NCBI GenBank assembly: GCA_947488345.1
Contig: CANKZQ010000003.1
Span: forward strand, 124,001-188,000
Direction of reading: 5' to 3'
Length of the DNA stretch: 64,000 nt
Source of the DNA: an uncultured Flavobacteriaceae bacterium
Lineage (GTDB): Bacteria; Bacteroidota; Bacteroidia; Flavobacteriales; Flavobacteriaceae
Shown here: positions 1,291-26,468 of the stretch, in pieces
Layout of the letters: each line of letters begins with the position of its first letter
Position numbering within the stretch: position 1 is the stretch's first letter
Made by a program: the position numbers and the translations under genes
The notes under the pieces: generated by a model
Databases searched by the model: none
What the model was told of the DNA's origin: nothing
The model's input: the letters and a program-made list of their open reading frames with translations, nothing else

Positions 1291-4200
1291 TTAACTTAAT
1301 TCTTCATCATAATAGTGCGTAGCATCCTGCAGTAGAATTGACAGCATCTCTTTTTCTTCAGCAATACGTGAATCATCCCAGTCGAGATATTCAACCATAT
1401 CACTAATAACTAAGTCTTTAAATTTCGTTACACTAGCAATATTAAAATAAAGACGACCTGTACGACGTACAAAGAAATCTGCTAAACTATTTGTCATTTC
1501 GTGATGTACACAATACCATAACTCAGCGCGTATTAATCTTTCTTCCATTGTTTCATTGGCGAAAAAATCAGCCTTATTCAACACTATATCGGCTTGCTTT
1601 CCATAGGTAGTCGTTAAATACCAAGCATCATATGTATCAGTAACACCTGCAACCTTTAGCCTATTTTCAAGCTCTTTTTGATAGGCACTAACTTCTTTTA
1701 CTGTTTGCATCGGTTGCGAAGTCAATGCTATTTTTTCGGTATCTGTCTTCTTAAATTTTGATCTACGTTTAGCGCTCATTGATTTTAGCACTACCTCAAT
1801 TACTCGATGCGCCATTTTCCGGTATCCTGTCAATTTTCCTCCAGCAATGGAAATCAGTCCACTTTCAGAAACAAAAGTCTCATCCTTTCGGGACAATTCT
1901 GAGGGATCCTTTTTATCTTCATGAATTAGGGGCCTTAAACCTGCCCAATTAGATTCCACATCATTTATAGTCGCCTTTACCGTCGGAAAAGTTTTGTTGA
2001 CCGCGTCTAATAAATAATTCACATCATCTTTTGTGGCTACTACTCTATCTAGATTACCTTTATAATTCGTATCTGTTGTACCTACATAAGTGACTCGTCC
2101 TCTGGGAATAGCGAATATCATACGGCCATCGTCAACATCAAAATAAACAGATTGTTTTATGGGTAATTTTTCAGCAGGAAATACGATATGAACACCCTTC
2201 GTTAAATGCAATCTTTTATGATTCATAGACGCATCTTTCGTGCGCAATAAGTCTACCCAAGGCCCAGCGGCAGATACAAAGTTTCTCGCTGTTATATTTA
2301 CTTTTATTCCAGTATTATGATCAACACAATTCACACTCTGAATCTTTCGTTCAGTATTATATACGAACTCCTCCATCTCACAATAGTTGATGACCGTTGC
2401 GCCAAATTCTGTAGCTTTTTTCAAAAGTTCAATTGTTAAACGGGCGTCATCTGTGCGATACTCAGCATAATAACCTCCACCAAGCAACGAAGTCTCATCT
2501 AACAAGGGCTCTTTGAGGATTGTCTCTTTTGTATCTAACATTTTTCTGCGGTCATCACCTTCAACATTAGCCAAAATATCATATACTTTTAGACCAATTG
2601 AAGTTAACATTTTACCATAGTTACCTCCCTCAATTAATGGCAACAGCATTTTCTCCGGAACCACTAAATGCGGTGCTAATTTGTGTACGATGGCTCTTTC
2701 AGTTCCCGATTCTTTTACCAAACCAATCTCCATCTGCTTTAAGTAACGCAAGCCTCCGTGAATTAATTTTGTAGATTTATTGCTAGTACCAGAGGCAAAG
2801 TCATTCTTTTCTACCAAACACGTTTTTAAGCCTCTCGAGGCTGCATCTAATGCAATACCAGCTCCTGTAACACCTCCACCAATAATTATTAAATCATATT
2901 TAGTTGAGGCTAACTTATTCAATTGTTTTTCTCTATCCAGAATCGAAAAACGCTGTGCCCGTTCTTTTTTCTTTGATGTCGACGTTTTTGTTCTATCGAT
3001 TGCCTTTAACCATCCTTTATACTTCTGCTTTCGCATTTTTCGATCCATTTTTGGTTCAAAAATGGTATCTACCTCTCTAACGGCATCAATATCTTCTTTG
3101 GTCCAAACTCCTGCTTTTATACCGGCCAGTAGAGCAGCCCCTAAGGCTGTTACTTCGAGCATTTTTGGTCTATCAACATCAACATTGAGGATGTCAGATT
3201 GAAATTGCATGAGGTAATTATTAGCAGAAGCACCTCCATCAACTTTTAAAGTAATCATTTGTTTGCCACTATCTTCAATCATAGCGTCTAATACATCTTT
3301 CGTTTGATATGCCAGTGCTTCTATGGTCGCTTTTATGATATGCTTCTTACCACTATCTAAGGTTAATCCATATATCGCACCCTTTGCATTTGCATCCCAG
3401 TAAGGTGCCCCCAATCCGGCAAAAGCTGGTACCACATACAGATCTTTCAAAGGCGGAATTTCATTACAAATAGCCTCGGTTTCGGATGCTTTGTTAATCA
3501 ATTGCATCTGATCACGTAACCATTGTATGGATGCTCCTCCTACAAAAACACTCCCCTCAAGTGCATATTTTATGTTTTCATTATCTAAACTACATGTCAA
3601 TGTGGTTAAGAGTCCGTTTTTAGAGACCACATGTTTTTTACCTGTGTTTAGTAATAAAAAACAACCCGTACCGTAGGTGTTTTTCGCCATTCCTGCTTTA
3701 TGGCCGCCTTGTCCAAATAGTGATGCTTGTTGATCACCAGCTACGCCATAAATTGGAATTTGTTTCTTTTGATACGTTACAAAACCAAAATCTGAAGAAG
3801 AGTTTTGTACTTTAGGCATCATAGATCTAGGAATACCCATGGTTTGTAGCATCTTATCATCCCAACAGAGATCTTTGATATTATACAACATCGTACGCGA
3901 TGCATTTGTATGATCGGTTACGTGCTTTTCTCCATTCGTAAATTTATAGATAAGCCAACTATCTATAGTACCAAATAATAATTGCCCTTTAGCCGCTTTC
4001 GCTCTTGCCCCATCTACATGATCTAACATCCATTTAAGTTTAGTTCCTGAGAAGTAAGAGTCGATAACTAAACCCGTATACTCTCGAACATAATCTTCTA
4101 ATCCTTGCGATTTTAGCTCATCACAGATAGCGGTAGTACGTTTATCCAACCATACAATCGCTTTATGGATGGGTTCACCCGTTTCTTTATCCCAGACAAC

Positions 4201-4458
4201 AGTGGTTTCTCTTTGATTGGTAATCCCAATGGCCGCCACATCATTTGCCGAAATTTTCGCATCCTTCATGACGTTTTCAAATGCTTCCTTTTGGTCATTG
4301 AAAATTTCATTAGCATCATGTTCAACCCAACCCGATTTTGGGTAATGCTGTGTCAGTTCCTTTTGAGAAACTGCTACAATTTCTCCTTTTAAATTGAATA
4401 CAATTGCACGTGTACTGGTAGTTCCTTGATCAAAGGCAATAACATATTTTCGACTCAT
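1291..4458 (-). CDS. glpK-glpD: Glycerol kinase - glycerol-3-phosphate dehydrogenase fusion
   Basis: One uninterrupted 1055-residue frame carries two enzymes that are normally separate. Residues 1 to about 495 are a full-length glycerol kinase: the phosphate loop DQGTTSTRAIVF at residues 10-21, GVAGDQQASLFGQGG and DGGASANNYLMQ. After a basic, Ser/Thr/Lys-rich linker (about 495-515, TKTSTSKKKERAQR) comes a full-length FAD-dependent glycerol-3-phosphate dehydrogenase with the dinucleotide motif IIIGGGVTGAGIALD near residue 520, followed by STKLIHGGLRYL. The protein would turn glycerol into dihydroxyacetone phosphate, passing glycerol 3-phosphate between its own domains and electrons to quinone at the inner membrane. 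It is last in a tight operon (15 bp after the symporter). No glpF facilitator is nearby, which fits glycerol produced inside the cell. Confidence 0.93.
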   Translation of the reverse strand: MSRKYVIAFDQGTTSTRAIVFNLKGEIVAVSQKELTQHYPKSGWVEHDANEIFNDQKEAFENVMKDAKISANDVAAIGITNQRETTVVWDKETGEPIHKAIVWLDKRTTAICDELKSQGLEDYVREYTGLVIDSYFSGTKLKWMLDHVDGARAKAAKGQLLFGTIDSWLIYKFTNGEKHVTDHTNASRTMLYNIKDLCWDDKMLQTMGIPRSMMPKVQNSSSDFGFVTYQKKQIPIYGVAGDQQASLFGQGGHKAGMAKNTYGTGCFLLLNTGKKHVVSKNGLLTTLTCSLDNENIKYALEGSVFVGGASIQWLRDQMQLINKASETEAICNEIPPLKDLYVVPAFAGLGAPYWDANAKGAIYGLTLDSGKKHIIKATIEALAYQTKDVLDAMIEDSGKQMITLKVDGGASANNYLMQFQSDILNVDVDRPKMLEVTALGAALLAGIKAGVWTKEDIDAVREVDTIFEPKMDRKMRKQKYKGWLKAIDRTKTSTSKKKERAQRFSILDREKQLNKLASTKYDLIIIGGGVTGAGIALDAASRGLKTCLVEKNDFASGTSNKSTKLIHGGLRYLKQMEIGLVKESGTERAIVHKLAPHLVVPEKMLLPLIEGGNYGKMLTSIGLKVYDILANVEGDDRRKMLDTKETILKEPLLDETSLLGGGYYAEYRTDDARLTIELLKKATEFGATVINYCEMEEFVYNTERKIQSVNCVDHNTGIKVNITARNFVSAAGPWVDLLRTKDASMNHKRLHLTKGVHIVFPAEKLPIKQSVYFDVDDGRMIFAIPRGRVTYVGTTDTNYKGNLDRVVATKDDVNYLLDAVNKTFPTVKATINDVESNWAGLRPLIHEDKKDPSELSRKDETFVSESGLISIAGGKLTGYRKMAHRVIEVVLKSMSAKRRSKFKKTDTEKIALTSQPMQTVKEVSAYQKELENRLKVAGVTDTYDAWYLTTTYGKQADIVLNKADFFANETMEERLIRAELWYCVHHEMTNSLADFFVRRTGRLYFNIASVTKFKDLVISDMVEYLDWDDSRIAEEKEMLSILLQDATHYYDEELS

Positions 4459-4473
4459 GAATGGTACAACGGT

Positions 4474-6201
4474 TTAAAAAATGAAATAAGTACTTAAAAC
4501 GAGTATGGTAATCACAATTCCAATTATCTTGGCATATTTCCAAGGTGTGGTATCTATCTCTTCGGTTACCACAGGAACATACACATCTTTCTTAGGATAT
4601 AGCTTTCCAATCACCAACATAATTATAATATTTACCACAAATAAAATTCCCATAATATGCAAGAAATGTGGATATGCTTCGGCCTCAATGAGACTAATTC
4701 TATCTAAATGCGCAGGAATATCCGTCACCCCTATTTCACTAAAATAGCTAGCTTTTTCTTCTTTATCGAGAGTTTTCAAAAATGAAGATCCTTTAATCCC
4801 CGCTTTTTCTAAGGCGCTTTCAACAAAGTAAGGGTTTAAGATTAGTAGGCTAATCAAGTACATGATTACACCTCCGATTAGCGCAATCTTTGCTCCTAAA
4901 GCTGGCACTCGTTTAGAAAGAATACCAATAACAACAACTGCCAATATTGGTACACTTAAGCTCCCTAATGCTTGTTGGATATATGAGAATAATCCATCTG
5001 GCGCATTGGCGATAAACGGCGCAATGCTCATAGAAATAATCGCAAGAAATAGACCGAAAATTTTCCCTGCTTTTACCGTTTGTTTTTCACCGGCATCCTT
5101 CTTGAAATATTCTTTGTATAAATCAAAACCAAACAGGGTTGCACTACTATTTAATAAACTATTAAAAGAACTCAATACAGCACCAAATAGCACCGCTGCA
5201 AAGAAACCTGTGAATTCTGGTCTCAACACTTTACGGACTAAAGCAGGATATGCTTGATCGGCATTTTCTAAGCTTCCGTCAAATATATGCCATGCAATGA
5301 TCCCTGGCAACACAACAATAACGGGTATTAAAAACTTCACAAAAGCAGCTAACATCATTCCTTTTTGCCCATCTCTTAAACTCTTAGCTCCAAAAACACG
5401 TTGTAAAATTGCTTGATTAGTACCCCAATAATACATTTGTGCGATCATCATTCCTGTAAATATCGTACCAAAAGGAATTGATGAGGTAACATCTCCTTTT
5501 ACATTGAATTTTTCTGAATTGTTATTCCAAAGTGTACTTAAGCCATCACTTATACTCCCATCACCAATCATCATTAAACCAAAAATTGGAATTAACAACC
5601 CGCCAATCAATAAACCTATGGCATTAATTAAATCGGAAACAGCAACAGCTTTTAACCCTCCAAAGATGGCATAGACAATACCAATCGCTCCTATACTCCA
5701 AACACATAACCAAATAACAGCCGATTCAGACATGCCCAAGAGTGTGGGCAAATCAAACATAGTACTAAAGGCTAGAGACCCTGAATATAGAATCGTAGGT
5801 AATAAGACAATACCAAATGCTATTAAAAACAGGATCGAAAGAATTGTTTTGGTTTGAACATCAAATCTACCTTGTATGAATTCTGGTATGGTGGTTATAC
5901 CCGAACGCATGTACTTAGGTAACAACAAAATCGCTGTTAATACCATGGCAATAGCCGCTAATGTTTCCCAAGCCATTACCAAAACACCTTCTGTAAAAGA
6001 TTGACCATTCAAGCCGACAATTTGTTCGGCTGAAAGATTCGTAAGTAAGAGAGAACCTGCAATAGTAATCGCTCCAAGGCTTCTTCCGCCAAGGTAATAA
6101 CCATCAGCTGTACTTTCATCGGTTCCTCTAGTTTTATACCACGCTACAAAACCTACTAATAAGGTGAAACCGACGAATGAAATGATAGATACTGAATCCA
6201 T
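4474..6201 (-). CDS. Sodium/solute symporter (SSS family, vSGLT-like)
   Basis: A 575-residue inner-membrane protein with about 14 hydrophobic segments. It resembles the Vibrio sodium/galactose transporter vSGLT at diagnostic places: NLSAEQIVGLNG, YYWGTNQAILQR and LNSSATLFGFDLYKEY. The family uses a sodium gradient to import sugars and related small solutes. Six base pairs separate it from the alpha-galactosidase gene and 15 from the glpK-glpD fusion, so all three are surely co-transcribed. Because that hydrolase has no export signal, the symporter probably brings the intact galactoside into the cytoplasm. The family is certain; galactoside as substrate is an inference from resemblance and context, and galactose itself or another sugar is possible. 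Confidence 0.88.
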   Translation of the reverse strand: MDSVSIISFVGFTLLVGFVAWYKTRGTDESTADGYYLGGRSLGAITIAGSLLLTNLSAEQIVGLNGQSFTEGVLVMAWETLAAIAMVLTAILLLPKYMRSGITTIPEFIQGRFDVQTKTILSILFLIAFGIVLLPTILYSGSLAFSTMFDLPTLLGMSESAVIWLCVWSIGAIGIVYAIFGGLKAVAVSDLINAIGLLIGGLLIPIFGLMMIGDGSISDGLSTLWNNNSEKFNVKGDVTSSIPFGTIFTGMMIAQMYYWGTNQAILQRVFGAKSLRDGQKGMMLAAFVKFLIPVIVVLPGIIAWHIFDGSLENADQAYPALVRKVLRPEFTGFFAAVLFGAVLSSFNSLLNSSATLFGFDLYKEYFKKDAGEKQTVKAGKIFGLFLAIISMSIAPFIANAPDGLFSYIQQALGSLSVPILAVVVIGILSKRVPALGAKIALIGGVIMYLISLLILNPYFVESALEKAGIKGSSFLKTLDKEEKASYFSEIGVTDIPAHLDRISLIEAEAYPHFLHIMGILFVVNIIIMLVIGKLYPKKDVYVPVVTEEIDTTPWKYAKIIGIVITILVLSTYFIF

Positions 6202-6207
6202 AAATTG

Positions 6208-7977
6208 TTAAATTTGAGTTAGTTGTACAATTCCACAAGCAGGCACTTCAATTTCAACTAACCCACTTAAGGTCAATTCATTTTGGCTCGTAAGATTGCC
6301 TTTACAATCATATATTTCACATTGATATAAGCCCATATTTTTAGCCACTTTTATAATCATACTAGTGGCTAATTGAGCATTTAAAATATCAATATTTTTA
6401 TGTGCTTGTTCCAAATGTACTATATATTCATCATACAATCCAATTATAAGGGTATCATTTTTAGAGACTTGCTGAATAGGATAATTTGCTAATGGTTTAC
6501 TTGGAATAAACTCACCATCAGTTAAAACGTCGTTGCGTTGGTTCCAATACGATGTATAGAAAGACACCATTTCTAGGTGATCTTTAGGCAGTTCTTTTAG
6601 TTTTACCGAAATTTGAGGTACTCCAAATAAGGTATTGACCATTTGCAATGCCGCAACTTCTAATTTCTCATTTTTATGCCAAGTGATCATATCAGAATGT
6701 ACAGCAGTATCACCTGCCAACATTGTAATATCTGCAATTCTAACTCTATTCATCGTGGCGTCGCCCGGACAATCGAAAGCACGAAACATATTCCCATATT
6801 TTCTCATTGCCGGACCCGTGTACTTTTGTCTAAATTCAATAAAAACTTCTGGATTTATTGCGCGTAGGGTATCAATAATATCGGTCATCAAACGATCTAC
6901 CGCTTCATTTATAGAAATATAATCTCTCCCATCAGTTCTAGAAACTATTGTATCTGGATACAGTTTAAAATCATCGATAAAGTCTAATTTAAAACCGTCT
7001 AATTTCCATTCTAATAAGGCTTTTTTATAAATTGTTATCAGATAGGCCCGTACCTCAGGAAATCTTGGATCAAAAACAGGTGCCCAGCGATGATTTTCTG
7101 TTAAGAATTTACCCTTAAATCTTCGAAAGGCTTTTGATTTTTTTCCGCAAAAAGGTACAGCATACCAAAAACCTACTTTCATACCTATATTATGAATTGA
7201 ACTCACAAATTCTCTTGGATTTGTTAGCCTTTCTGGCGTCCAATCACCGGTATAATCATACCCTCTATTCGAATCATTTGTTTGCCAACCATCATCAATA
7301 ATAATGGATTCATATCCGAGTTTTTTAGCTATTCTACATTCTTCGATAAGCTCATTCGCATCTAGCTCTTGATGAAACTGATACCAGGTAGAATACAAAG
7401 GTGTTTTCGCGATTTTGGGTACATAAGCGGGTTTTAAACTGGTAAAACCTGCCCACCATAGTGCCGTTTCTTTTAAAGCAGATGAGAAGTGTTTTTTTCC
7501 TGTATCTATTCTTAGTTGAACATTATATTCTTTTATTTTAGGTCTTTTCTCAGTAAAAAAAGTAATGTGGCAGTAATAACAATCATCTTCTTCTCTTATT
7601 CGAGCATTTAGTTCAAGTTTTTCGATTACGTCGGAGCAGGCAAAGCTCAACACGTTTTCGTCATTATTACCGAAAAGCGCAATCACAGGTGCATCTATTG
7701 AAATTCTAGACTCGATATGATCTAGCTCCCAATCGGCCTGAATTCGTTTAGAAAAATCACTTGTTGGTTTCCAAACACCTTTGACATTGTAAGCAGGAAT
7801 CTTCCATTGTAAAGTAATAGGTTCCACATCTATATATTCATTTGCAGTTAACTTAAAATTGTAAATTTTGATCTCATTTTCATCATGAATCTTTGTTAAA
7901 GAAGCATCCATTTTGGCAGGTACGCCTGTAATTAATATTTCATTCAACTGCTGTACTATTTTAGTATCTATCATCAT
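6208..7977 (-). CDS. GH36-type alpha-galactosidase, cytoplasmic
   Basis: 589 residues with a melibiase-type TIM barrel: the strand IIIDDGWQT, GMKVGFWYAVPF, and DGFKLDFIDDF, which carries the expected Asp nucleophile; acid/base candidates lie in the GDATMNRVRIAD region. The enzyme should release alpha-linked galactose. The N-terminus (MMIDTKIVQQLNEIL) has neither a signal peptide nor a lipobox, so it acts in the cytoplasm. It starts one base after the stop of the FG-GAP lipoprotein and is followed by the symporter. At under 600 residues it is shorter than the roughly 700-residue tetrameric GH36 enzymes and closer to compact members of clan GH-D. With galK-galT and glpK-glpD in the same cluster, a galactosyl-glycerol is the most economical substrate; melibiose- or raffinose-type sugars remain possible. 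Confidence 0.85.
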   Translation of the reverse strand: MMIDTKIVQQLNEILITGVPAKMDASLTKIHDENEIKIYNFKLTANEYIDVEPITLQWKIPAYNVKGVWKPTSDFSKRIQADWELDHIESRISIDAPVIALFGNNDENVLSFACSDVIEKLELNARIREEDDCYYCHITFFTEKRPKIKEYNVQLRIDTGKKHFSSALKETALWWAGFTSLKPAYVPKIAKTPLYSTWYQFHQELDANELIEECRIAKKLGYESIIIDDGWQTNDSNRGYDYTGDWTPERLTNPREFVSSIHNIGMKVGFWYAVPFCGKKSKAFRRFKGKFLTENHRWAPVFDPRFPEVRAYLITIYKKALLEWKLDGFKLDFIDDFKLYPDTIVSRTDGRDYISINEAVDRLMTDIIDTLRAINPEVFIEFRQKYTGPAMRKYGNMFRAFDCPGDATMNRVRIADITMLAGDTAVHSDMITWHKNEKLEVAALQMVNTLFGVPQISVKLKELPKDHLEMVSFYTSYWNQRNDVLTDGEFIPSKPLANYPIQQVSKNDTLIIGLYDEYIVHLEQAHKNIDILNAQLATSMIIKVAKNMGLYQCEIYDCKGNLTSQNELTLSGLVEIEVPACGIVQLTQI

Positions 7978-7978
7978 C

Positions 7979-10900: not shown

Positions 10901-11326
10901 ATTGTTACAATTATTATTATTGCAGTTGAATCCACCAACACTTAAGTAAATATCTTCGAGTTGGTCATTATTTATATCTACTACCGAAACTCCCGTGACC
11001 CATACATTTGTTTCAAAGTTTGACTTTTCACTTATGTCTTCAAATGTTAAATCTCCTTTGTTTAGATAAATTTTTGACGAAACTTGATTACCGGTAAACA
11101 CCATGTCTTGTAATCCATCATTATTAAAATCACCAATTCCTACACCTCCACCATTATAAGAATATTGAAATTCTATTACATTAATAGAATCGTTTTCGAT
11201 AATAGTGTTAGAAAAGGTAATTCCCGAATCTTTTGAATCGACATATTTAAAAAGTGTATTTTGCTTCTTAGCACAAGAAGCAAACAAAAGAATACACAAA
11301 ATATATAGGGTACATAGTTTTGACAT
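7979..11326 (-). CDS. Large FG-GAP/VCBS-repeat lipoprotein with UnbV/ASPIC domain
   Basis: A long surface lipoprotein built from beta-propeller FG-GAP/VCBS repeats with calcium-binding DxDxDG loops, for example DFDNDGNKDIYITNGY, DLDNDGDLDIVVNN, DFDKDGDIDFFVG and DFDNDGDIDFIVG. A UnbV/ASPIC segment (VVRGYLSSVEPILHFGLE ... DSLEVSWPN) sits in the middle. I start it at the ATG at 11326 (MSKLCTLYILCILLFASC, a lipobox ending in Cys). An in-frame ATG at 11356 would place ten residues inside a terminator hairpin and its T-run, so it is not used. Proteins of this type often follow SusC/SusD in marine Bacteroidota and are thought to be outer-membrane ligand-binding or assembly partners; no enzymatic role is visible. 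Confidence 0.85.
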   Translation of the reverse strand: MSKLCTLYILCILLFASCAKKQNTLFKYVDSKDSGITFSNTIIENDSINVIEFQYSYNGGGVGIGDFNNDGLQDMVFTGNQVSSKIYLNKGDLTFEDISEKSNFETNVWVTGVSVVDINNDQLEDIYLSVGGFNCNNNNCNNLLFINKGVNGKGIPQFEERAAAYNLDDGLYAQQTLFFDYDLDGDLDAYIVHNGESTRSKNALIPKKYQPNHIQDVLLRNDVVEGVNHPKFTDVSIDLGITHRGFGLGIALNDFNRDGLPDLYISNDFITDDLLYINQGIDTILKTHNGFKEMSQQWMPHQSFNAMGVDVADINNDALPDVLVLDMLPQDYTRQKSMLGTTNYDKYLLSQRNNYASQYIRNTLQLNNGFIDSQPLKTSEVGYMSGIASTDWSWAPLIADFDNDGNKDIYITNGYVKDITDLDFVSYSNNNSIFGTDETRKASVKKNLQKVSGVKLSNFFYKNTERSYFEDVSDSWISEKKSFSNGAVFADLDNDGDLDIVVNNINDEASIIENQTERVKRANYVRIQLKGGQQNSRAIGAKVTLWEGGRQQQQYQSVVRGYLSSVEPILHFGLESDRIDSLEVSWPNTSVSKLYNVEVNQHLIVDSKLIERLERSDIILPTKIFNVDTTTIALTHQENGGHDYVFQHLLMRQYNKFGPCVTAANVDGEPGDELFFGGSKDAPALILSQDEEGVYKVMQKLESAPENTDAVFVDIDNDNDLDLYIANGGTEFKLASSIYQDQLYLNDGTGRFTIAADALPKVFETTACIKPNDFDKDGDIDFFVGSRIVKGKYPTAPNSQLLRNNSGRFEALENDQLLRSGMITDALWKDIDGDDWDDLIIVGEWMPITIFKNNRGKLEKMDARWMNESNEDIKVSGWWNSIEAGDFDNDGDIDFIVGNQGLNGFVLPKEGKPVYIYNKDFDNNGSIDPVLAQYFKTKNGYELLPVHTRDDIMKQLVKLKDTYVTYASFSKANFKNLLKITDLEKSTLRADTFASSYIENIGNGTFKVVALPDECQVAPINDMLVKDINNDGFLDVLLVGNDFTAETNYGKYDALMGIYLKGSDQGFKAITSKESGFYVPGQSHHIIEIRTRNNNNKVLVSQNNDKVMMFSINKN

Positions 11327-11346
11327 TATCTGATCGAAAGAAATTG

Positions 11347-11378
11347 AAAAAACCAAGTAGTCTTTTACGACTACTTGG
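11347..11378 (-). terminator. Intercistronic terminator/attenuator after susD
   Basis: Perfect 10-bp arms (CCAAGTAGTC at 11353-11362 and GACTACTTGG at 11369-11378) with a 6-nt loop are followed, on the minus strand, by six Ts (11347-11352). It lies between susD and the FG-GAP lipoprotein gene, inside one operon. It should cut part of the transcripts, giving more SusC/SusD than downstream enzymes. Confidence 0.75.
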
Positions 11379-11416
11379 CTCCTAATTTAAACATATGAAA
11401 ACAAAGTTAACTCAAA

Positions 11417-12982: not shown

Positions 12983-12996
12983 TAAATTAATTTTTA

Positions 12997-15900
12997 TTAA
13001 AAGCCCAATTGTAATCCTACAGTAAATGTTCTGGCATTAGGATATGCCCTTGCATCTATACCACGACCCAATATTGGATTTAAGCCGCGAGGCGAACGTC
13101 CACCAGATGTAGAAGCTACATCAGGATCATAACCTGAATAATCTGTTATAACGAAGAGGTTCTGAGCATTTAAATATACTCGAGCTGAACCAATCCAATC
13201 AACAGCTAATTTTTCATTAAAAGTATAACCAATCTCAACAGTTTTTAATCTTAAATAAGAACCATCTTCTACGAAATAAGTCGATGCTGCTCTATTACCA
13301 CCTGCATCACTCGTAGTTGCTCTAGGCACATCAGTTATTGTATTTGTTGGAGTCCAAGCTCTTAGCACATCCACTAACTTATTGTCGTCAGACCAAAAAG
13401 TATTAAAAAACTTATTCTGATTCCAAATTTCATTCCCTTGAACCCCTTGGAAAAATAAGCTGAAATCTAAGTTCTTATAATTTCCGGCGAAGTTAATACC
13501 ATACGTAAAGTCTGGTGTTGGATCTCCAATAACCGACTGGTCATCTACCGTTACCATGCCATCTCCATTAATATCGGCTCTTTGAAAATCTCCTGGTTGT
13601 ACTAAAGATCTTCTTACAGGATCATTCACTGTATTTGGATCATTATCTATAGATGCCTGATCGGGATAGACTCCTAAGATAGTGTATCCGAAAAATACTC
13701 CGAGAGGCTGTCCTTCGATAAAGCGATTCACTGTTCTACCATCCTCATCTACTCCTGGGCCAATAATAGGATTTGGTAACGATGTTAATTCATTCTTAAC
13801 TGTTGCCAAATTCAACCCTATACTATAATTAAAGTTTTCGCTCGGAGAATCGGTATAATTCAAACCTAGCTCAAATCCTCTATTATTTATGTTACCTGCA
13901 TTTTGGATAACTGGTAAACTAGTACCGCTCGAAGAAGGAATACTTACCGCTACCAATACATCTTCTACATCTTTGTTAAAATAGTCGGCAGTCAATGATA
14001 ACTTATTGTTTAGCAAGGTAGCATCGATACCAACATTCAGCGTTTTAGAAACTTCCCATTTAATGTCTTCATCTACTAATTGTGTTAAGGCATATCCGAA
14101 GGCGAAATCTTGTTGTTCACCAAAGGCCGTATTAGAGGTTAGTCCGAATACTGATTGATATGCATAATCGGAAATATTCTGAGACCCTAGTTCACCATAT
14201 CCAGCTCTTATTTTAAGTGTATTCACTACCCCATCTTCATTCCAAAAATCTTCATTACTTACTCTCCAACCTACGGACAATGATGGGAAATATCCCACAC
14301 GATTTCCATCTCTAAATTTAGAAGATGCGTCACGACGCATAGACGCTGTTAGTAAATATTTATCATCATATTTATAATTAATATTTCCGAAATAAGATAA
14401 TAATCCACTTATCGTACGCTGTCCACCTGTAGCAACTACGTTTGAAGCATCAGCCGCTCCCACATTTCTTATATCATTCGAAGGCAATCCATTAACTGTC
14501 GTCGATAATGCATTACCATCAATATCTTGTCTTGAAACACCTATTAAAGCTTGAATGTTATTCTTACCAAAAGATTTTTTATACGTTAAGGTTCCATCCA
14601 TAATGGTTGAGATGGTTTCAGAACGTGTTTCTGTGAGATCGTTTAACTCGTTTAAATTATTTAGCGCATCAGAATTACTCATAAAATAAGTAGGTCGAAA
14701 TAATGAATAGTATTGATTCACATAATCAATTCCAACATTAACCTTCCCTGTCAGGCCTTCTATAATTTCATAACTCGCGCTCAAACTACCTAAAACATTT
14801 CGAGAAGTTAATAAGTTATCCTCTAATGTGGCCAAAGCATATTTATTGATACCTCCAAAATTATGAACACTAAATTCAGGGGCCTCAAAACCACCTTCAT
14901 TTTCGGGTACATTAAACCTTAATATGGGCGCTGTAGAACCTTCAAAACCAAACCAATCATTTGTTTGCAATTTAGTTTGTGCTAATGATAAAGATTCTTC
15001 TATTTTCACTTTACCAATATTAAATTTACTATTTAAGCGTATATTAAATTTCTCAAAGCCAGATCCGACTAATATTCCATCTTGTTTAAAGTAATTTGAT
15101 GAAAATAAATAAGAAGAACTTTCTCCACCGCCAGAAACTGAAAATCCATAATCTTCGATAGCCCCATTATTTAAAGAGAGGTCTTGCCAATCAGTACTCA
15201 CTCCTGTGTTAGGAAACACGAAGCCTGTACCATCGTTTTGTTCTAATTGATTTCTATACTGTTCGAACTGCGGTCCGTTCAAATAATCTAGGGTTTTACT
15301 CGGCGTATCTACACCAGCTCTAATATCTAAGGTCACTTTTGGTGACGTATCTGTTGTACCTCTATCGGTTGTAACAATTACTACACCATTTGCTGCTCTC
15401 GAACCATAGATCGCGGCAGAAGCGGCATCTTTTAATACTTGAATATTTTTAAAATCTTTCGAATTCAAATAATACAAATCATTTACAATCATTCCATCAA
15501 CGATATATAAAGGAAATGAATTCGTAAGTGAGCTAATCCCTCTAATAAATACGTTCGCTGGACCTCCAGGTTGCCCTCCAAAACTTTCTACTTGTACCCC
15601 CGTAATTTTTCCCTGTAATGCAATTGTGGGATTACTTGCAACAACTTGTTTTATTGCTGCTCCTTTTATGGACGATACTGCCCCGGTGATATCACGCTTA
15701 TTTTGTGAACCATACCCTACAACTACAACCTCATCTAACGCTTGCGAATCACTATCTAGGATAACGTTTAAAGTTGTCTGACCATTTAGGGGTACTTCCT
15801 TTGTAATATAGCCCACAAAACTGAACACTAACGTTGCATTAGCATCTACATTGTTCAGGGTATAATTACCATCAAAATCGGTACTTGTACCGTTATCAGT

Positions 15901-16044
15901 TCCTTTTACAACCACATTTACCCCCGGTAAAGGGCCACTCGCTTCTGATACCGTACCAGAAACGGTCACCGTTTGTGCAACAACACTGTGACTCGCCAGT
16001 ATTAATGCAAAAACGATTAGTTGTTTACATACTTTTTTTAACAT
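12997..16044 (-). CDS. susC: SusC/RagA-family TonB-dependent transporter
   Basis: 1015 residues: a signal peptide (KQLIVFALILASHSVVAQ), a carboxypeptidase-regulatory-like beta-sandwich (VSGTVSEASGPLPGVNVVVKG), the TonB-box region DEVVVVGYGSQNKRDITGAV, the plug (QVLKDAASAAIYGSRAANGVV) and a C-terminal 22-strand barrel ending in an aromatic residue (TFTVGLQLGF). It imports the ligand captured by SusD across the outer membrane using energy from TonB/ExbBD. It is the first gene of the operon running to 1291. A well-formed promoter and two palindromes lie upstream. Confidence 0.96.
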   Translation of the reverse strand: MLKKVCKQLIVFALILASHSVVAQTVTVSGTVSEASGPLPGVNVVVKGTDNGTSTDFDGNYTLNNVDANATLVFSFVGYITKEVPLNGQTTLNVILDSDSQALDEVVVVGYGSQNKRDITGAVSSIKGAAIKQVVASNPTIALQGKITGVQVESFGGQPGGPANVFIRGISSLTNSFPLYIVDGMIVNDLYYLNSKDFKNIQVLKDAASAAIYGSRAANGVVIVTTDRGTTDTSPKVTLDIRAGVDTPSKTLDYLNGPQFEQYRNQLEQNDGTGFVFPNTGVSTDWQDLSLNNGAIEDYGFSVSGGGESSSYLFSSNYFKQDGILVGSGFEKFNIRLNSKFNIGKVKIEESLSLAQTKLQTNDWFGFEGSTAPILRFNVPENEGGFEAPEFSVHNFGGINKYALATLEDNLLTSRNVLGSLSASYEIIEGLTGKVNVGIDYVNQYYSLFRPTYFMSNSDALNNLNELNDLTETRSETISTIMDGTLTYKKSFGKNNIQALIGVSRQDIDGNALSTTVNGLPSNDIRNVGAADASNVVATGGQRTISGLLSYFGNINYKYDDKYLLTASMRRDASSKFRDGNRVGYFPSLSVGWRVSNEDFWNEDGVVNTLKIRAGYGELGSQNISDYAYQSVFGLTSNTAFGEQQDFAFGYALTQLVDEDIKWEVSKTLNVGIDATLLNNKLSLTADYFNKDVEDVLVAVSIPSSSGTSLPVIQNAGNINNRGFELGLNYTDSPSENFNYSIGLNLATVKNELTSLPNPIIGPGVDEDGRTVNRFIEGQPLGVFFGYTILGVYPDQASIDNDPNTVNDPVRRSLVQPGDFQRADINGDGMVTVDDQSVIGDPTPDFTYGINFAGNYKNLDFSLFFQGVQGNEIWNQNKFFNTFWSDDNKLVDVLRAWTPTNTITDVPRATTSDAGGNRAASTYFVEDGSYLRLKTVEIGYTFNEKLAVDWIGSARVYLNAQNLFVITDYSGYDPDVASTSGGRSPRGLNPILGRGIDARAYPNARTFTVGLQLGF

Positions 16045-16104
16045 AAGATAAATAATTAAGTTGATTGTTTTAAATAGTTAGTGTTAGTTTAAAAAAGCCT
16101 AAAA

Positions 16105-16120
16105 TGTATGCTATGATACA
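16105..16120. promoter_or_regulatory. Candidate operator downstream of the susC start site
   Basis: Inverted repeat TGTAT-N6-ATACA located a few bases after the predicted transcription start of susC, where a bound repressor would block elongation. Its half-sites resemble those of the galK palindrome but the spacer is longer (6 versus 3). It could be the site of the adjacent GntR-type regulator. Confidence 0.35.
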
Positions 16121-16133
16121 CTATGCTACTAAA

Positions 16134-16164
16134 CAAAATTAAAACAAAAATTGAGATATCCAAA
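16134..16164 (-). promoter_or_regulatory. Promoter of the SusC to GlpK-GlpD operon
   Basis: On the minus strand a -33 TTTG (16161-16164) lies exactly 19 bp from a -7 TAATTTTG (16134-16141), matching the Bacteroidota consensus. Transcription would start near 16127, giving a leader of about 83 nt before the susC ATG. Confidence 0.7.
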
Positions 16165-16170
16165 AAATAA

Positions 16171-16185
16171 ATGTAAAAATTACAT
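16171..16185. promoter_or_regulatory. Candidate operator ATGTAAAAATTACAT
   Basis: Perfect palindrome ATGTAA-AAA-TTACAT just upstream of the susC -33 element. It matches the form ATGTAWAAAWTACAT, also present in the galK promoter at 18133-18149, which suggests one regulator for both units. Confidence 0.5.
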
Positions 16186-16296
16186 ATATTAAATAAAATT
16201 GTAGTCAAAAAAATACATTTCCTTCATTTTGTTGGGTTTGAAAACGTACAACGATTGACGTCGAGAACCATCAAATTCAAAACAGCAACTGAAGGA

Positions 16297-17307
16297 TTAA
16301 ATAGAATTTCGCTTAATCAAATTGGAAGGAACAATGAGTTGGATAGTACTCCCCTCTTTAATATGAAGTGCAGCAGTCATTGCCATTTCTTTAAAATCAA
16401 TGGAGATAGTTGTGATTCCTCCAAAAATAAATTCTTTAACGACATTGTCATTGTGAGACAATATCCCGACATCTTTACCCACTTTGTATTCGGCATTTCG
16501 ACAGTCTTTTAAAAACTCCCACAAGAAAGTATCGCTAATAAAAAAATAAGAATGCTTCTTTTTTAACATTCCTTTTTTATATTTTTTCTCAACAACGCCA
16601 TTAATATTATGATTATCAATAAATTTCTGAAAAGCATGGAGTATTCCGACTGGATAATCGGCGTCGTCTCTAAAGAACAAAATGAACTTTTTGTATCGAC
16701 TTATTTCTGGTAACAATTCGACTAATTTCTCGTAGGTTTTTTTTTCAAACTCTTGAGAGATAAAAGAATATGCTTGAGGCATTTTAATATACCTATCGAT
16801 AATTAGCAGTTTTTGAGGTGCAATTCTTTTTAACAAGGGTATTACTTTCTGATTTTGAACAGGTGCAATGACATACTTACCATACTTACCTCGAATATTA
16901 GTCACAATTGTCTCAAAAATTGCAACATTGTTATGATGAAAATAGACATCAATTTGAAATCGTTTACCCAATTCTTTTCTAAAGGTATTGTAAAACTCTT
17001 TCTGGAAACTTTGAAAAGCAAAAAGAAGTAAAGCAACCTTCATGGTCACTTTTGTTTCTTGACTTACAATATAATATCCTTTCAACTTTTTAGACTCCAC
17101 GAGTCCTCTTTCTTTTAATGCTTCATAAGCCCTAACTATCGTCTTGCGGGCGAACCCTAACTCTTCTACCATTACATTAATGGAGGGTAATTTATCTCCT
17201 GTTTTCAAAAAACCCTCATCTATGGATTCTAGAACTCCATTGACTAATTGCTCATGTTTAGAAAGCGAATTATATTGGGTAAGTTCTTTTATTTTTTCTA
17301 TTAGCAA
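16297..17307 (-). CDS. GntR-type regulator with LacI-like sugar-sensing domain
   Basis: 336 residues. The first 75 form a GntR winged helix: KTGDKLPSINVMVEELG, then ARKTIVRAYEALKERGLVES, then the wing KLKGYYIVS. The remainder looks like a periplasmic-binding-protein or LacI-type sensor (KYVIAPVQNQKVIPLLKRI, VGILSHNDNVVKEFIFGGIT, TTISIDFKEMAMTAALHI). The same domain combination occurs in AraR of Bacillus subtilis. It is the gene next upstream of the susC operon, 252 bp away on the same strand, and is probably its specific regulator, responding to the imported sugar or a breakdown product. Whether it represses or activates cannot be read from the sequence. Confidence 0.85.
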   Translation of the reverse strand: MLIEKIKELTQYNSLSKHEQLVNGVLESIDEGFLKTGDKLPSINVMVEELGFARKTIVRAYEALKERGLVESKKLKGYYIVSQETKVTMKVALLLFAFQSFQKEFYNTFRKELGKRFQIDVYFHHNNVAIFETIVTNIRGKYGKYVIAPVQNQKVIPLLKRIAPQKLLIIDRYIKMPQAYSFISQEFEKKTYEKLVELLPEISRYKKFILFFRDDADYPVGILHAFQKFIDNHNINGVVEKKYKKGMLKKKHSYFFISDTFLWEFLKDCRNAEYKVGKDVGILSHNDNVVKEFIFGGITTISIDFKEMAMTAALHIKEGSTIQLIVPSNLIKRNSI

Positions 17308-17380
17308 AACCTGGGAGTTGATCTATTTTGGTGAACGCAAATTAGTGAAAAATAGATAAAAACCTAGAAACTGGAGAATT

Positions 17381-18076
17381 TTAAATATTGAATTTAGTAT
17401 TAAAGTTCAACTTCTGTCTAGAATTAAAACTATACAAATATGCTCCTCGTTTACTTGTTGATTTATCCTTTTCATCTAACCTTGTTAGAATATCAAATGA
17501 CATTATTTTCTTTCTAAAATTACGAGGATCAATTTCTTTCTGATAAATGGCTTCATACAATTGTTGTAATTGCGGAATGGTAAACTTGTCAGGCAATAGT
17601 TCAAATCCTACTGGTTGATAACTTGCCTTTTCTCTAAGCCGCTTTAAAGCGTCATTCACCATATCATTGTGGTCTAGAACTAACGCTGGCAGCTGTCTAA
17701 TATCATGCCATTCTGCTCCATGTGACTCTACCAATTCTTTATCTTGAGCATCTATTGAAATTAGAGCATATTGTGCTACTGATATACAACGATAACCTGG
17801 GTCTCTTTCGGCAAGATTATACGTTCTTAGTTCCTCCATAAAGACATTTTCTAAACCGGTAATTTCAGTTAATACACGTTTGGCAGCTTCGGTAACACTT
17901 TCTTTAAGTTGCACAAAACTTCCTATTAAAGAATATGCACCCTTTTGAGGAGCAACCCTCCTTTTAAAAACTAATAGCTTTAGAATTCCTTTATCAAATC
18001 CAAAAATGATACAGTCGGTAGCGACATACATTTTATCATGCTCCTTATACCAATCTTTTTCCCAATCTGTAGTCAT
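17381..18076 (-). CDS. Nudix-type transcription regulator (NrtR/AraR-like)
   Basis: 231 residues: an N-terminal Nudix fold (about 15-150) and a C-terminal winged helix (about 155-225, PDKFTIPQLQQLYEAIYQ, RNFRKKIMSFDIL, then a basic end). The Nudix box is damaged: in RVLTEITGL (67-75) two of the glutamates needed in REUxEE are replaced by Val68 and Ile72, and the spacing from Gly52 is off by one. That argues for ligand sensing rather than hydrolysis, as in the NrtR family, whose Bacteroides member AraR governs arabinose use. Its position, divergent from galK-galT, points to control of galactose genes. The palindrome at 18133-18149 is the likely binding site. Confidence 0.85.
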   Translation of the reverse strand: MTTDWEKDWYKEHDKMYVATDCIIFGFDKGILKLLVFKRRVAPQKGAYSLIGSFVQLKESVTEAAKRVLTEITGLENVFMEELRTYNLAERDPGYRCISVAQYALISIDAQDKELVESHGAEWHDIRQLPALVLDHNDMVNDALKRLREKASYQPVGFELLPDKFTIPQLQQLYEAIYQKEIDPRNFRKKIMSFDILTRLDEKDKSTSKRGAYLYSFNSRQKLNFNTKFNI

Positions 18077-18132
18077 ATATTCGGTTTTAGTGTAGACATC
18101 TTACTATTCGTAATTTTATTTAAAATATAATT

Positions 18133-18149
18133 AATGTATAAAATACATT
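18133..18149. promoter_or_regulatory. Candidate operator AATGTATAAAATACATT
   Basis: A perfect 17-bp palindrome (7-bp arms, 3-bp spacer) between the divergent Nudix regulator and galK, covering the -33 region of the galK promoter. A bound protein would exclude polymerase. It shares the form ATGTAWAAAWTACAT with 16171-16185. Confidence 0.6.
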
Positions 18150-18152
18150 TAT

Positions 18153-18160
18153 TATATTTG
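18153..18160 (+). promoter_or_regulatory. galK-galT promoter, -7 element
   Basis: TATATTTG fits the TAnnTTTG -7 consensus of Bacteroidota and lies three bases after the palindrome. The expected start near 18166 leaves a leader of about 78 nt. The -33 region shows no clear TTTG. Confidence 0.55.
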
Positions 18161-18243
18161 GCAACAATTTCATCGAGAATAACGACGTCTTTCTACTTTT
18201 TCTTAATGGACCCTAAAGTTAACATTTTAATATAAAATAGCTA

Positions 18244-19419
18244 TTGGATTTCAAAACATCTATCATAAAATTATCCACTCGGAATGAACAACTTGTTGCA
18301 AATTTTAAACCTGAAATTAGTGTCACATCACCGGGAAGAGTAAATTTAATAGGTGAACATACCGATTACAACGCTGGATACGTTCTACCTACCGCTATTG
18401 ATAAAAATATATATTTTCACTTAAAGAAAAATGGAGAGGACAACGTTTGTAATATTTACAGTAAGACGTATGATTCTTTCTTACAAGTGTTCTTAACCTC
18501 TGTAAAAAAAAGCGATACAGAATGGGAGAATTATATTCTTGGAGTTGTGTATGAATTACAAAAGCATACTTCAAAAATTAAAGGCTTCGATTGTATTATT
18601 GAAAGTAAATTACCTATTGGAGCTGGTATCAGTTCGTCTGCAGCCTTAGAATGCGGTCTGGCCTTTGCACTAAACAAACTCTTCGATTTGCAATTATCTA
18701 AGCGCTGTCTTATTGAGTTGTCTAGAGATGCAGAGCATTCATTTGTTGGTACCAAATGTGGAATTATGGATCAGTTTGCCTCTGTCATGAGTGAGGCAAA
18801 TCATGCCCTTCTTTTAGATTGTAAAACGTTGAATTACCAACTCGTACCTTTACAAATAGACCCTTATGAACTCTTATTACTCAACACAAATGTATCTCAT
18901 AGTTTGTCTACTAGTGAATATAATACTAGAAGAAAAGAATGCGAAATTGGGGTACAAATCATACAGTCGAAATATTCAGAAATTGACTCTTTAAGAAGTG
19001 CCAACCTATCCATTTTAAATGAATTTAAGGACGAAATGAGTTCAATAGTTTATCAAAGATGTTCGTATGTTCTTCATGAAAACCAAAGAGTACTTGCAGC
19101 AGCTGATGCATTAAAGACGGGAAGACTATCGGCCTTTGGCGAATTAATGTATGCTTCGCATAAGGGTTTACGAAATGAATATAACGTTAGCTGTGATGAA
19201 CTAGACTTTTTGGTTGATTTTTCGAAGCGTTATGATACTGTTTTAGGATCTAGAATGATGGGCGGTGGCTTTGGAGGTTGTACAATAAATCTAATTCATA
19301 AGGATGTAATCACAACATATGTTCAAGATGTTTCAAGAGCGTATAAAGAAAATTTCAACATAGAATTAAGCCCTATACTGGTGAAACCTAGTAATGGAAC
19401 TTCTTTTCAAACATATTAA
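18244..19419 (+). CDS. galK: Galactokinase
   Basis: 391 residues that phosphorylate galactose at C1, the entry to the Leloir pathway. All GHMP-kinase signatures are present: SPGRVNLIGEHTDYNAGYVLP-type substrate motif at about 29-50, the ATP loop PIGAGISSSAALE, KCGIMDQFAS with the catalytic Asp, and GSRMMGGGFGGC near the end. The start must be a TTG at 18244: an in-frame TAG ends at 18240, and the next in-frame Met lies beyond the ATP loop. The TTG start gives about the usual number of residues before the first motif. galT begins with no gap after its stop codon. No galE or galM is in this window. Confidence 0.95.
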   Translation: MDFKTSIIKLSTRNEQLVANFKPEISVTSPGRVNLIGEHTDYNAGYVLPTAIDKNIYFHLKKNGEDNVCNIYSKTYDSFLQVFLTSVKKSDTEWENYILGVVYELQKHTSKIKGFDCIIESKLPIGAGISSSAALECGLAFALNKLFDLQLSKRCLIELSRDAEHSFVGTKCGIMDQFASVMSEANHALLLDCKTLNYQLVPLQIDPYELLLLNTNVSHSLSTSEYNTRRKECEIGVQIIQSKYSEIDSLRSANLSILNEFKDEMSSIVYQRCSYVLHENQRVLAAADALKTGRLSAFGELMYASHKGLRNEYNVSCDELDFLVDFSKRYDTVLGSRMMGGGFGGCTINLIHKDVITTYVQDVSRAYKENFNIELSPILVKPSNGTSFQTY

Positions 19420-20457
19420 ATGATGGAATATTTTAATGATAATCCCCATAGACGTTATAATATTTTAACGGGTGAATGGGTTTTAGTTTCACCGCATAGA
19501 ACTAAACGTCCGTGGCAAGGTAAAACAGAAAAAGTGACCAATGCTGTTCTACCATCTCATGATCCAAATTGCTACCTATGCCCTGGAAACACACGTGCTA
19601 ACCGCATACAAACCCCTGCCTATAAAAAGACCTATGCTTTCGAAAATGATTTTGCGGCTTTGATGCCTGATACTCTTTCTTCAAAAATCGATAATGGTTT
19701 GTTAAAAGCAACTTCTGAAATTGGTATTTGTAAAGTAATTTGTTTTTCACCTAATCATTCTTTAACGCTTCCATTAATGGAAGCTGAAGCCATTGTTGAT
19801 GTTATTTCATTATGGCAAAAAGAATACGTTGAACTCGGTAGCTTACCCACTATAAATCATGTTCAGATATTTGAGAATAAAGGTGACATTATGGGGTGCA
19901 GTAATCCACATCCTCACGGACAAATATGGGCGCAAAGTACGATCCCACAGGAAGTTCAAAAAAAGAGCACTAAACAACAAGAGTACTGGGCAAAAACGAA
20001 TAGAAGTCTTTTAGGCGATTATATTCGTCAAGAAATAATTATAAACGAGCGTATCATCATAGAAAATGACTATTTCGTTGCTCTGGTTCCATATTGGGCT
20101 GTTTGGCCGTATGAAGCAATGATTGCACCTAAAAGGCATATTAAAAACATAACTGGATTAAAAAGTGTTGAAAAAAGTGCTTTCGCGGAAATACTAAAAA
20201 AACTTACCGTTAAATACGACAATCTGTTCGAAACATCGTTCCCATATTCTTCTGGAATTCATCAGAGTCCTACCGATGAAACAGCACATCCTGCCTGGCA
20301 CTTTCATATGTCTTTTTACCCACCACTATTGCGATCAGCGACTGTAAAAAAATTCATGGTTGGTTATGAAATGTTTGCCAATCCGCAACGGGATATTACG
20401 GCAGAACAAGCCGCCGAAAAATTGAGGAAATTACCAGAAAAACACTACAGTAAATAA
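19420..20457 (+). CDS. galT: Galactose-1-phosphate uridylyltransferase
   Basis: 345 residues; swaps UMP between UDP-glucose and galactose 1-phosphate. CYLCPGNTRANR supplies a CxxC pair, GCSNPHPHGQIWAQ the active-site HPH with the His nucleophile, and HPAWHFHMSFYPPLLRS the C-terminal HxH motif. The ATG follows the galK stop codon immediately (TAA then ATG ATG), so the two are translationally coupled. The gene is convergent with the KDPG aldolase gene, only 5 bp away, without an obvious terminator between them. Confidence 0.96.
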   Translation: MMEYFNDNPHRRYNILTGEWVLVSPHRTKRPWQGKTEKVTNAVLPSHDPNCYLCPGNTRANRIQTPAYKKTYAFENDFAALMPDTLSSKIDNGLLKATSEIGICKVICFSPNHSLTLPLMEAEAIVDVISLWQKEYVELGSLPTINHVQIFENKGDIMGCSNPHPHGQIWAQSTIPQEVQKKSTKQQEYWAKTNRSLLGDYIRQEIIINERIIIENDYFVALVPYWAVWPYEAMIAPKRHIKNITGLKSVEKSAFAEILKKLTVKYDNLFETSFPYSSGIHQSPTDETAHPAWHFHMSFYPPLLRSATVKKFMVGYEMFANPQRDITAEQAAEKLRKLPEKHYSK

Positions 20458-20462: not shown

Positions 20463-21131
20463 CTATTTTCTAATTTCTTTTATAACTGATAGCGTATTCT
20501 TTACAAGCTTTTCTAAACCTGCATAATCTTCATTTGCCAGAATTTCTTTACTTATTAATTTGGATCCCATACCTACACAGGTTACACCGGCATCGAACCA
20601 CCCTTTCAAGTTGGCTTCATCTGTACTTACGCCTCCGGTTGGCATTACACTTGTCCACGGTTGAGGACCTTTGATAGCCTTTACAAATCCGGGGCCATAG
20701 GTAGACCCTGGAAATAGTTTTACGATTTCACATCCAAGTTCTTCAGCCTTGTTAATTTCTGTCAATGAACCGCATCCTGGTGACCACAGCACTTTACGTC
20801 GATTACATACGATGGCAATATCTTCTCTAAGTGACGGTGTCACGATAAAATTAGCTCCCATCTGCATAAAAAAGGAAGCCGCCGCACCATCGGTGATAGA
20901 ACCAACACCCATGATCATTCCTGGCAATTCTTTAATAGCGTATTTGTTTAATTCTAAAAATACTTCATACGCAAAATCACCTCTGGCGGTGAATTCTAGG
21001 AGTCGTGCTCCACCATCATAACATGCTTTTAATATTTTTTTACCCAATTCAATATCAGGGTGATAAAATAACGGAACCATTCCTTGTTCCTTCATTACTG
21101 CTGCTACTTCTAATCGTGTATATTGTGCCAT
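20463..21131 (-). CDS. kdgA: 2-keto-3-deoxy-6-phosphogluconate aldolase
   Basis: 222 residues with the class I aldolase barrel: LLEFTARGD carries the catalytic Glu, VKLFPGSTYGPGFVKAI the Schiff-base Lys, and MPTGGVSTDEAN the phosphate site. It splits KDPG to pyruvate and glyceraldehyde 3-phosphate, the last step of alginate monomer breakdown. It is the 3'-most gene of the alginate cluster, 76 bp after kdgK; a nearly perfect inverted repeat lies in that gap. Confidence 0.95.
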   Translation of the reverse strand: MAQYTRLEVAAVMKEQGMVPLFYHPDIELGKKILKACYDGGARLLEFTARGDFAYEVFLELNKYAIKELPGMIMGVGSITDGAAASFFMQMGANFIVTPSLREDIAIVCNRRKVLWSPGCGSLTEINKAEELGCEIVKLFPGSTYGPGFVKAIKGPQPWTSVMPTGGVSTDEANLKGWFDAGVTCVGMGSKLISKEILANEDYAGLEKLVKNTLSVIKEIRK

Positions 21132-21207
21132 TCTATTATTGTTGATATGTAAACTGTTAAATCGCTAAACTTGCTAAACAAATTTAACGATTCAACAACT
21201 AAACTTT

Positions 21208-22248: not shown

Positions 22249-22300
22249 CTAAAAAATTTATTTTATTAATTCTATTTTAACTTAATCAGAATATTCAATT

Positions 22301-23065: not shown

Positions 23066-23131
23066 ATTTTTGCTTTTTAATTTTTGATCTTTATTCTATT
23101 ATATTTAAGAGATTATACATCTCTATACACT

Positions 23132-25365: not shown

Positions 25366-25382
25366 CTATTTGTGTAATAAGC

Positions 25383-25409: not shown

Positions 25410-25485
25410 TATTAAATTTAGTCAAAAACTTAAAGATAAAAAAACTACTCTTTAAAGTTTTACTTCATTTCTTGAATTACTGAGC

Positions 25486-26467: not shown

Positions 26468-26468
26468 T

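Follow-up and report, generated by a model that had tools for sequence, protein, structure and literature searches.

In Bacteroidota, the SusCD-type polysaccharide utilisation loci (PULs) bring together a SusC/SusD pair, a glycoside hydrolase (GH) and a linked regulator in one tight row of genes. Marine flavobacterial use of red-algal carbohydrate is exemplified by the carrageenan regulon of Zobellia galactanivorans (PMC5698469), and use of a glycosyl-glycerol compatible solute by glucosylglycerol catabolism, which involves the hydrolase GghA or a glucosylglycerol phosphorylase (PMC10873239). Floridoside ranks among the main carbohydrate stores of red algae (PMC8703398), and reverse hydrolysis by a GH36 enzyme is reported to yield isofloridoside from galactose plus glycerol (PMC8509150), suggesting that glycerol can be accommodated in GH36 active sites. 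Here we describe a locus from an uncultured Flavobacteriaceae bacterium (host genome 3.8 Mb, 95%-complete), carried by a 64,000-nt stretch of contig CANKZQ010000003.1 that we call the window and within which all positions are counted. With a probability of roughly 0.6, we read it as a SusCD-type utilisation operon for alpha-galactosyl-glycerol of the floridoside/isofloridoside class.

A single row on the minus strand encodes SusC, SusD, an FG-GAP/UnbV_ASPIC lipoprotein, a GH36-type hydrolase, a sodium/solute symporter (SSS) and a GlpK-GlpD fusion (Table 1). The gaps from SusC to GlpK-GlpD measure 14, 60, 1, 6 and 15 bp, and upstream lie the genes of a GntR and of a Nudix/NrtR-like regulator followed by a divergent galK-galT pair. 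A preliminary description of this DNA had already reported the tight operon with its neighbouring galK-galT and two regulators, all of which are in place, but had omitted the 1125-aa lipoprotein between SusD and GH36. As in other PULs, the SusC and SusD homologues (TIGR04056, PF07980) are adjacent, a glycoside hydrolase gene (GH36-type) stands in the row, a GntR gene lies upstream and the SusC promoter holds a conserved site; no surface or periplasmic polysaccharide depolymerase is encoded in the operon, whose sole hydrolase has no leader.

According to the pathway that we propose, the heteroside would cross the outer membrane by way of SusCD and then enter the cytosol intact through the Na+ symporter, to be split there by the GH36 hydrolase. 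Galactose would then enter the Leloir pathway via GalK-GalT, with galE located elsewhere in the genome, while GlpK-GlpD would phosphorylate glycerol and oxidise the product to dihydroxyacetone phosphate. The whole unit would be repressed by GntR from one operator just past the promoter -7 box. The gene content, the fold and motifs of the hydrolase, the tight spacing, a locus-specific operator and the recurrent linkage to glycerol and galactose genes were computed directly; the substrate, the intact import, the catalytic roles and the binding of GntR to its operator are our inferences.

This linkage was examined among 397 genomes of the family (G numbers, G000 being that of the window; L numbers denote fetched loci). 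Orthologues of the GH36 protein, defined by at least 56% identity, are present in 25 of them, and all 25 neighbourhoods were viewed (23 fetched, the window itself and, for G326, the contig L007). GlpK-GlpD lies within a few kb of GH36 in ten genomes from nine genera (G000, G017, G019, G036, G072, G138, G177, G323, G326 and G334), a grouping that is not due to chance (P ~1e-19 by position alone, shared descent ignored). GalK or GalK-GalT is next in line on the same strand in six (G120, G341, G350, G086, G215 and G211), a LacA/Maa-type acetyltransferase gene accompanies GH36 in six (G236, G001, G388, G377, G396 and G050), and three have none of these partners (G026, G102 and G018). Gene orders vary and include GH36-SSS-GlpKD, GH36-SSS-GlpK-GlpD-ASPIC and, in L127, GH36-GlpKD-SSS-GalE. 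The symporter, for its part, has orthologues (at least 72% identity) in 33 of the 397 genomes, 22 of the 25 with GH36 against 11 of the 372 others (P 6e-25, shared descent ignored; truncated copies may be missed), and adjoins GH36 and/or GlpK in 26 of the 33. At L128, L129, L130, L131, L137, L138 and L011, the LacA/Maa-like O-acetyltransferase gene stands between GH36 and the symporter, which in L131 is a paralogue of 32% identity; L020 was not used.

The history of GlpK was followed on a tree of 32 rows, from which L007 and L010 were dropped as near-copies and in which rows of less than 50% identity or 400 aa were unused. The label ‘beside GH36’ takes six changes on this tree, at least five of them forced by supported branches, suggesting that GlpK joined the GH36 operon, and that the partnership arose, probably more than once. 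The operon GlpK of G334 (58% identical to that of the window) is placed outside the 100/99 clade to which the other eleven belong; its row is long and its exact position unsure.

The hydrolase is a divergent member of its family and narrowly misses the curated Pfam Melibiase cut-off (26.9 against 27.0 bits). Its AlphaFold2 model (pLDDT, a confidence score, of 90.6) has the GH36 fold, an N-terminal beta-sandwich plus a TIM barrel: Foldseek ranks 1-24 in the PDB are GH36-type alpha-galactosidases or a galactosaminidase at 12-15% identity, and GH31 enzymes appear from rank 25 on. DD228-229, K330xD332 and R399xxD402 are invariant across 26 aligned relatives (L030, with an internal stop, was left out), and by analogy with GH36 we presume that they are the substrate-binding pair, the nucleophile and the acid/base motif, respectively; the profile alignments to solved GH36 enzymes end ahead of the acid/base residue.

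The absence of an export signal, also proposed previously, is borne out by the N-terminus, whose maximal 12-residue hydropathy is 1.03 compared with 2.3-3.3 in six leader-bearing relatives (L017, L018, L143, L144, L146 and L147). Orthologues at 56% identity or more are likewise leaderless. The six proteins with a hydrophobic leader belong to a set of seven relatives of 42-46% identity; the frame of the seventh, L145, is overlong and its leader not judgeable, and the GH36 of L016 (43%), kept out of the set, is leaderless. Symporter, GlpKD and GalKT partners stand beside none of these seven, four of which (L143, L144, L145 and L147) adjoin sulfatase and/or GH97 genes. Linkage to the three partners belongs to the leaderless clade. 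Two leader-bearing loci, L143 and L146, carry the same operator and a partial GntR relative, together with a sulfatase gene in L143 and, in L146, with a DUF7133/HEAT protein that itself weakly matches cytochrome c. A plasmid search for GH36 returned matches at 42% identity or less.

The GlpK-GlpD fusion announced in the preliminary description is real. Its GlpK half fills residues 1-496 (TIGR01311, 696 bits, above the cut-off) and its GlpD half begins at ~504-518 (DAO 183 bits, DAO_C 65 bits). A sequencing error is not the cause, because the unbroken fused frame recurs, at 68% identity or more, in 15 of the 397 genomes (host included; one copy is cut by a contig end); GlpK and GlpD are separate frames in G018 and G217. 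In the host genome, where all 16 candidates were scored, the fusion is the sole good GlpK and GlpD found, the next being a 28% partial match; two candidates per genome were scored elsewhere in the family.

Regulation also appears to be specific to the locus. The SusC promoter holds the 17-bp site TAGCATAGTGTATCATA. A pattern derived visually from 22 promoter regions (the window and 21 loci), TAGCAYASNNTANCAYA, matches exactly once in the window and once in the whole genome. Allowing one mismatch gives 11 genome matches against 12 for the reversed control, so that no operator sites beyond chance level are found elsewhere in the host genome. Among the 14 GH36-clade loci independent of the derivation of the pattern, nine carry the operator; it is absent from all 20 GlpK/GlpD loci lacking GH36 and from the nine stretches L151-L159. 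Twenty-six of 41 distinct sites begin precisely 5 bp downstream of a TAnnTTTG-like box, which we take to be the -7 element of Bacteroidota. A site placed there would suit a repressor, for which the neighbouring GntR is the simplest candidate, and we propose that GntR binds the operator as such. In each of the 21 pattern-source loci, SusC or GH36 is immediately preceded by a GntR relative (47-100% identity). Sites were also seen in L008, L010, L011, L021, L127, L128, L130 and L137, whose fetched stretches hold no such gene, and L016 shows the reverse, a GntR homologue (52%) in the absence of a site. The Nudix/NrtR-like protein likely regulates galKT; its gene has the same position beside galK in L100 and L126.

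Several points, considered here and in the next four paragraphs with the alternatives on which they bear, weigh against the galactosyl-glycerol reading. Fifteen of the 25 GH36-clade genomes have no adjoining GlpK, and the operator is missing from five of the 14 independent loci, namely the truncated contigs L007 and L015 and the true misses L014, L131 and L138. The first point, with GalK or GalKT at the locus instead in six genomes, would suit a general alpha-galactoside operon, for melibiose, raffinose-type sugars or galactomannan side chains, which would include GlpK-GlpD only through a chance placement of glycerol genes near sugar genes. Also in its favour, L009 and L010 have ManA at a distance of 9-10 kb from GH36, and an upstream fragment in L009 is presumably mannanase-like. 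We consider such an operon rather unlikely, GlpK having seemingly been recruited to GH36 operons more than once. Furthermore, relatives of GH32, fructokinase and GH13 (one query protein each) occur in none of 35 fetched loci with a GH36 of at least 50% identity, some truncated and the window excluded, which speaks against a diet of raffinose or sucrose.

The glycerol genes raise a second question. Fused GlpKD occurs without a nearby GH36 or symporter orthologue in L102-L104, L106, L108 and L109; the fusion is therefore not specific to this pathway, and its use as a pathway marker was abandoned. In addition, the host genome encodes two MIP channels, one AqpZ and the other with an NPARD motif, which we take to be of aquaglyceroporin type. 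The lack of glpF, which the preliminary description had taken as support for internal release of glycerol, is thus no argument, glpF being missing in the operon and not in the genome, and floridoside can draw no support from it. The gene of the NPARD channel (G000:C1:1185464-1186216; L150:9468-11259) ends 1 bp from a convergent galE. One could then imagine a mainly glycerol operon also taking hexoses, with the hydrolase as an accessory, given that no GlpK or GlpD besides GlpKD was found in the genome and that the symporter is paired with GlpK/GlpD without GH36 in six genomes. Such an operon is nevertheless very improbable in view of the operator, which none of the 20 GH36-free GlpK/GlpD loci carries, and of the aquaglyceroporin-like gene elsewhere in the genome; moreover, we know of no requirement for SusCD in glycerol uptake.

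The symporter belongs to the SSF family and, as initially noticed, resembles vSGLT, its best solved relative being 2xq2 (E 1.3e-61). It shares family with the sodium-sugar symporters vSGLT of Vibrio and NF007790 (presumably YidK) and keeps eight of 12 compared positions, for which we assume the binding, gate and sugar-contact roles of vSGLT: N64, E68, Q69, E88, Y263, K294, F424 and Q428 are retained, whereas four are substituted (S91 to A, N260 to Q, M73 to L and Y87 to W). However, the contact residues are the same in all orthologues listed, be the neighbour GH36, GlpKD or a GH13 gene, and stay unaltered next to an alpha-glucosidase. They therefore do not reveal the sugar, and were discarded as a pointer to it. 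The contexts of the 33 symporters are GH36 with GlpK in ten genomes, GH36 without GlpK in ten, a GH13 gene (Pfam) in three (G197, G338 and G062) and none of these in three (G086, G176 and G350), besides the six with GlpK alone; the one remaining, G278, is on a truncated contig that shares its GH32 and fructokinase-like genes with G062. G197 and G062 were counted under GH13 and not under GlpK, their GlpK-like genes being 52% and 43% identical. On the symporter tree, these labels are interleaved.

Two arrangements lead to a broader view of this transporter. At L105 (G148), genes for a 3-keto-disaccharide hydrolase and for a Gfo/Idh oxidoreductase precede those of the symporter and the fused GlpKD. 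At L151 (G197), the symporter has for neighbours a GH13 gene together with GlpK/GlpD genes in convergent orientation. On this basis, one may tentatively regard the symporter and GlpK-GlpD as a portable glycosyl-glycerol module plugged into differing cleaving systems in marine Flavobacteriaceae, a generalisation that is possible although we doubt it more than we believe it. It may be paired with GH36 where the substrate is galactosyl-glycerol, with GH13 in the case of glucosyl-glycerol (L151) and with a 3-keto-glycoside route (L105). If this were true, marine Flavobacteriaceae would use algal and cyanobacterial osmolytes as a diet with separate regulation. In L152, the symporter lies near a 3-keto-disaccharide hydrolase/oxidoreductase cluster, with a GH13 gene between them.

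The ecological setting gives a mixed picture as well. Three alginate lyase genes (PF08787) and one heparinase/alginate-lyase-like gene lie in the window (25565-38207), alongside genes for 2-keto-3-deoxygluconate (KDG) aldolase, KDG kinase, SDR and MFS proteins (labels given by eye) and a GntR-FCD regulator, and the region 20463-38207, directly adjoining galT, is by its gene content an alginate utilisation locus. No PF18206 porphyranase domain was detected in the host genome. Across the family, PF18206 (matches above cut-off only) is found in six of 25 GH36-clade genomes against 14 of 372 others (P 7e-4, uncontrolled for genome size) and in five of the ten GH36+GlpK genomes against 15 of 387, the host not being among the carriers. 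Yet the PF08787 control is enriched too (15/25 against 87/372, P 2e-4; three of its 102 genomes are below the family cut-off), so that the signal mainly reflects general macroalgal life. Within these 102 genomes, PF18206 occurs in 5/15 with GH36 and 9/87 without, a weak difference (P 0.03), and the sign of a red-algal lifestyle is suggestive only. Agarase_CBM had no match in the host genome and is uninformative, the controls being equally blank; GH16 had four. A chondroitinase B-family gene (41629-43959) and an Nramp metal transporter gene (38218-39492) lie in or by the alginate region.

Digalactosyldiacylglycerol (DGDG) carries alpha-galactosyl-1,6-beta-galactosyl-glycerol and is, as far as we know, present in all algae, in keeping with the alginate-lyase genes of this bacterium. 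Were the head group of plastid DGDG the substrate, GH36 would remove the outer galactose and a beta-galactosidase encoded elsewhere would free the glycerol. This is improbable in our opinion: the mapped GH36+GlpK-GlpD operons hold no second glycosidase, though GlpK-GlpD is present to take up free glycerol metabolism (the search did not extend to beta-galactosidases encoded elsewhere in the genome). At the level of sequence, floridoside, isofloridosides and DGDG-derived digalactosylglycerol are indistinguishable. The import of intact galactosyl-glycerol, its internal cleavage and the use of both halves, as put forward in the preliminary description, remain the best-supported reading, by virtue of the gene linkage and of the one operator ahead of the unit. 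Floridoside itself is not singled out, since isofloridosides and other alpha-galactosyl-glycerols fit equally.

Table 1. Features of the putative alpha-galactosyl-glycerol locus in the window.
Feature	Position	Strand	Basis
GlpK-GlpD fusion, 1055 aa: GlpK 1-496, FAD glycerol-3-phosphate dehydrogenase ~510-1055	1291..4458	-	profile matches
SSS sodium/solute symporter, vSGLT type, 575 aa	4474..6201	-	PF00474, NF007790 714 bits, 2xq2
Cytosolic GH36-type alpha-galactosidase (predicted), 589 aa, no signal peptide	6208..7977	-	profiles, alignment, AlphaFold2 model
FG-GAP/UnbV_ASPIC surface lipoprotein, 1125 aa	7979..11356	-	PF13517, PF07593
SusD-like lipoprotein, 521 aa	11417..12982	-	PF07980, PF14322
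SusC/RagA TonB-dependent outer-membrane transporter, 1015 aa	12997..16044	-	TIGR04056 835 bits
Candidate operator TAGCATAGTGTATCATA	16112..16128	-	5 bp downstream of TAnnTTTG -7-like box
GntR regulator, LacI-like effector domain, 336 aa	16297..17307	-	PF00392; weak PF13377 below cut-off
Nudix/NrtR-AraR-like regulator, 231 aa	17381..18076	-	PF21906, PF19368
galK, galactokinase, 391 aa	18244..19419	+	TIGR00131 314 bits, above cut-off
galT, galactose-1-phosphate uridylyltransferase, 345 aa	19420..20457	+	TIGR00209 489 bits, above cut-off

The lipoprotein has a likely ATG start near 11326 and, by eye, a lipobox ..LLFASC; its relatives adjoin GH36 at many loci. From ~18000 down to ~8000, the window is 99-100% identical to L005 in 500-bp bins. 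Beyond ~8000 (~10000 in L005), identity falls to 75-92% (97% in one bin) across GH36, SSS and GlpKD, making the lipoprotein/GH36 boundary a sharp, recombination-like break between the two sequences.

The open-access literature on floridoside, galactosyl-glycerol and glucosyl-glycerol yielded, among the matches listed, no bacterial utilisation locus of such make-up by title or start of the abstract, and by the same measure none on GlpK-GlpD fusions describes such a fusion. Compared with glucosylglycerol catabolism, the sugar and the enzymes are different here, and the portion of that report available to us describes no SusCD/SSS/GlpKD operon (PMC10873239). The carrageenan regulon of Zobellia targets a polysaccharide, and its main text does not contain the term GH36 (PMC5698469). 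The hydrolase shares its fold and the DD, KxD and RxxD motifs with the GH36 enzymes of Lactobacillus and Geobacillus (AgaA/B), with SpAga and with the galactosaminidase of Flavonifractor, but differs from them by its low identity (12-15%), its length (589 aa against mostly 650-760) and the 0.1 bit by which it falls short of Melibiase. With regard to the SusCD PULs of Bacteroidota, the locus has one hydrolase only, cytosolic, and no secreted depolymerase, while an inner-membrane Na+ symporter and glycerol genes lie within it and its probable target is a small heteroside. It supplies testable markers (the GH36 clade, the operator and the GlpK-GlpD neighbour) for the fate of the floridoside carbon pool. 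The locus is thus a new variant of the SusCD locus, and it suggests that the SusCD machinery can be aimed at a small heteroside instead of a polysaccharide.

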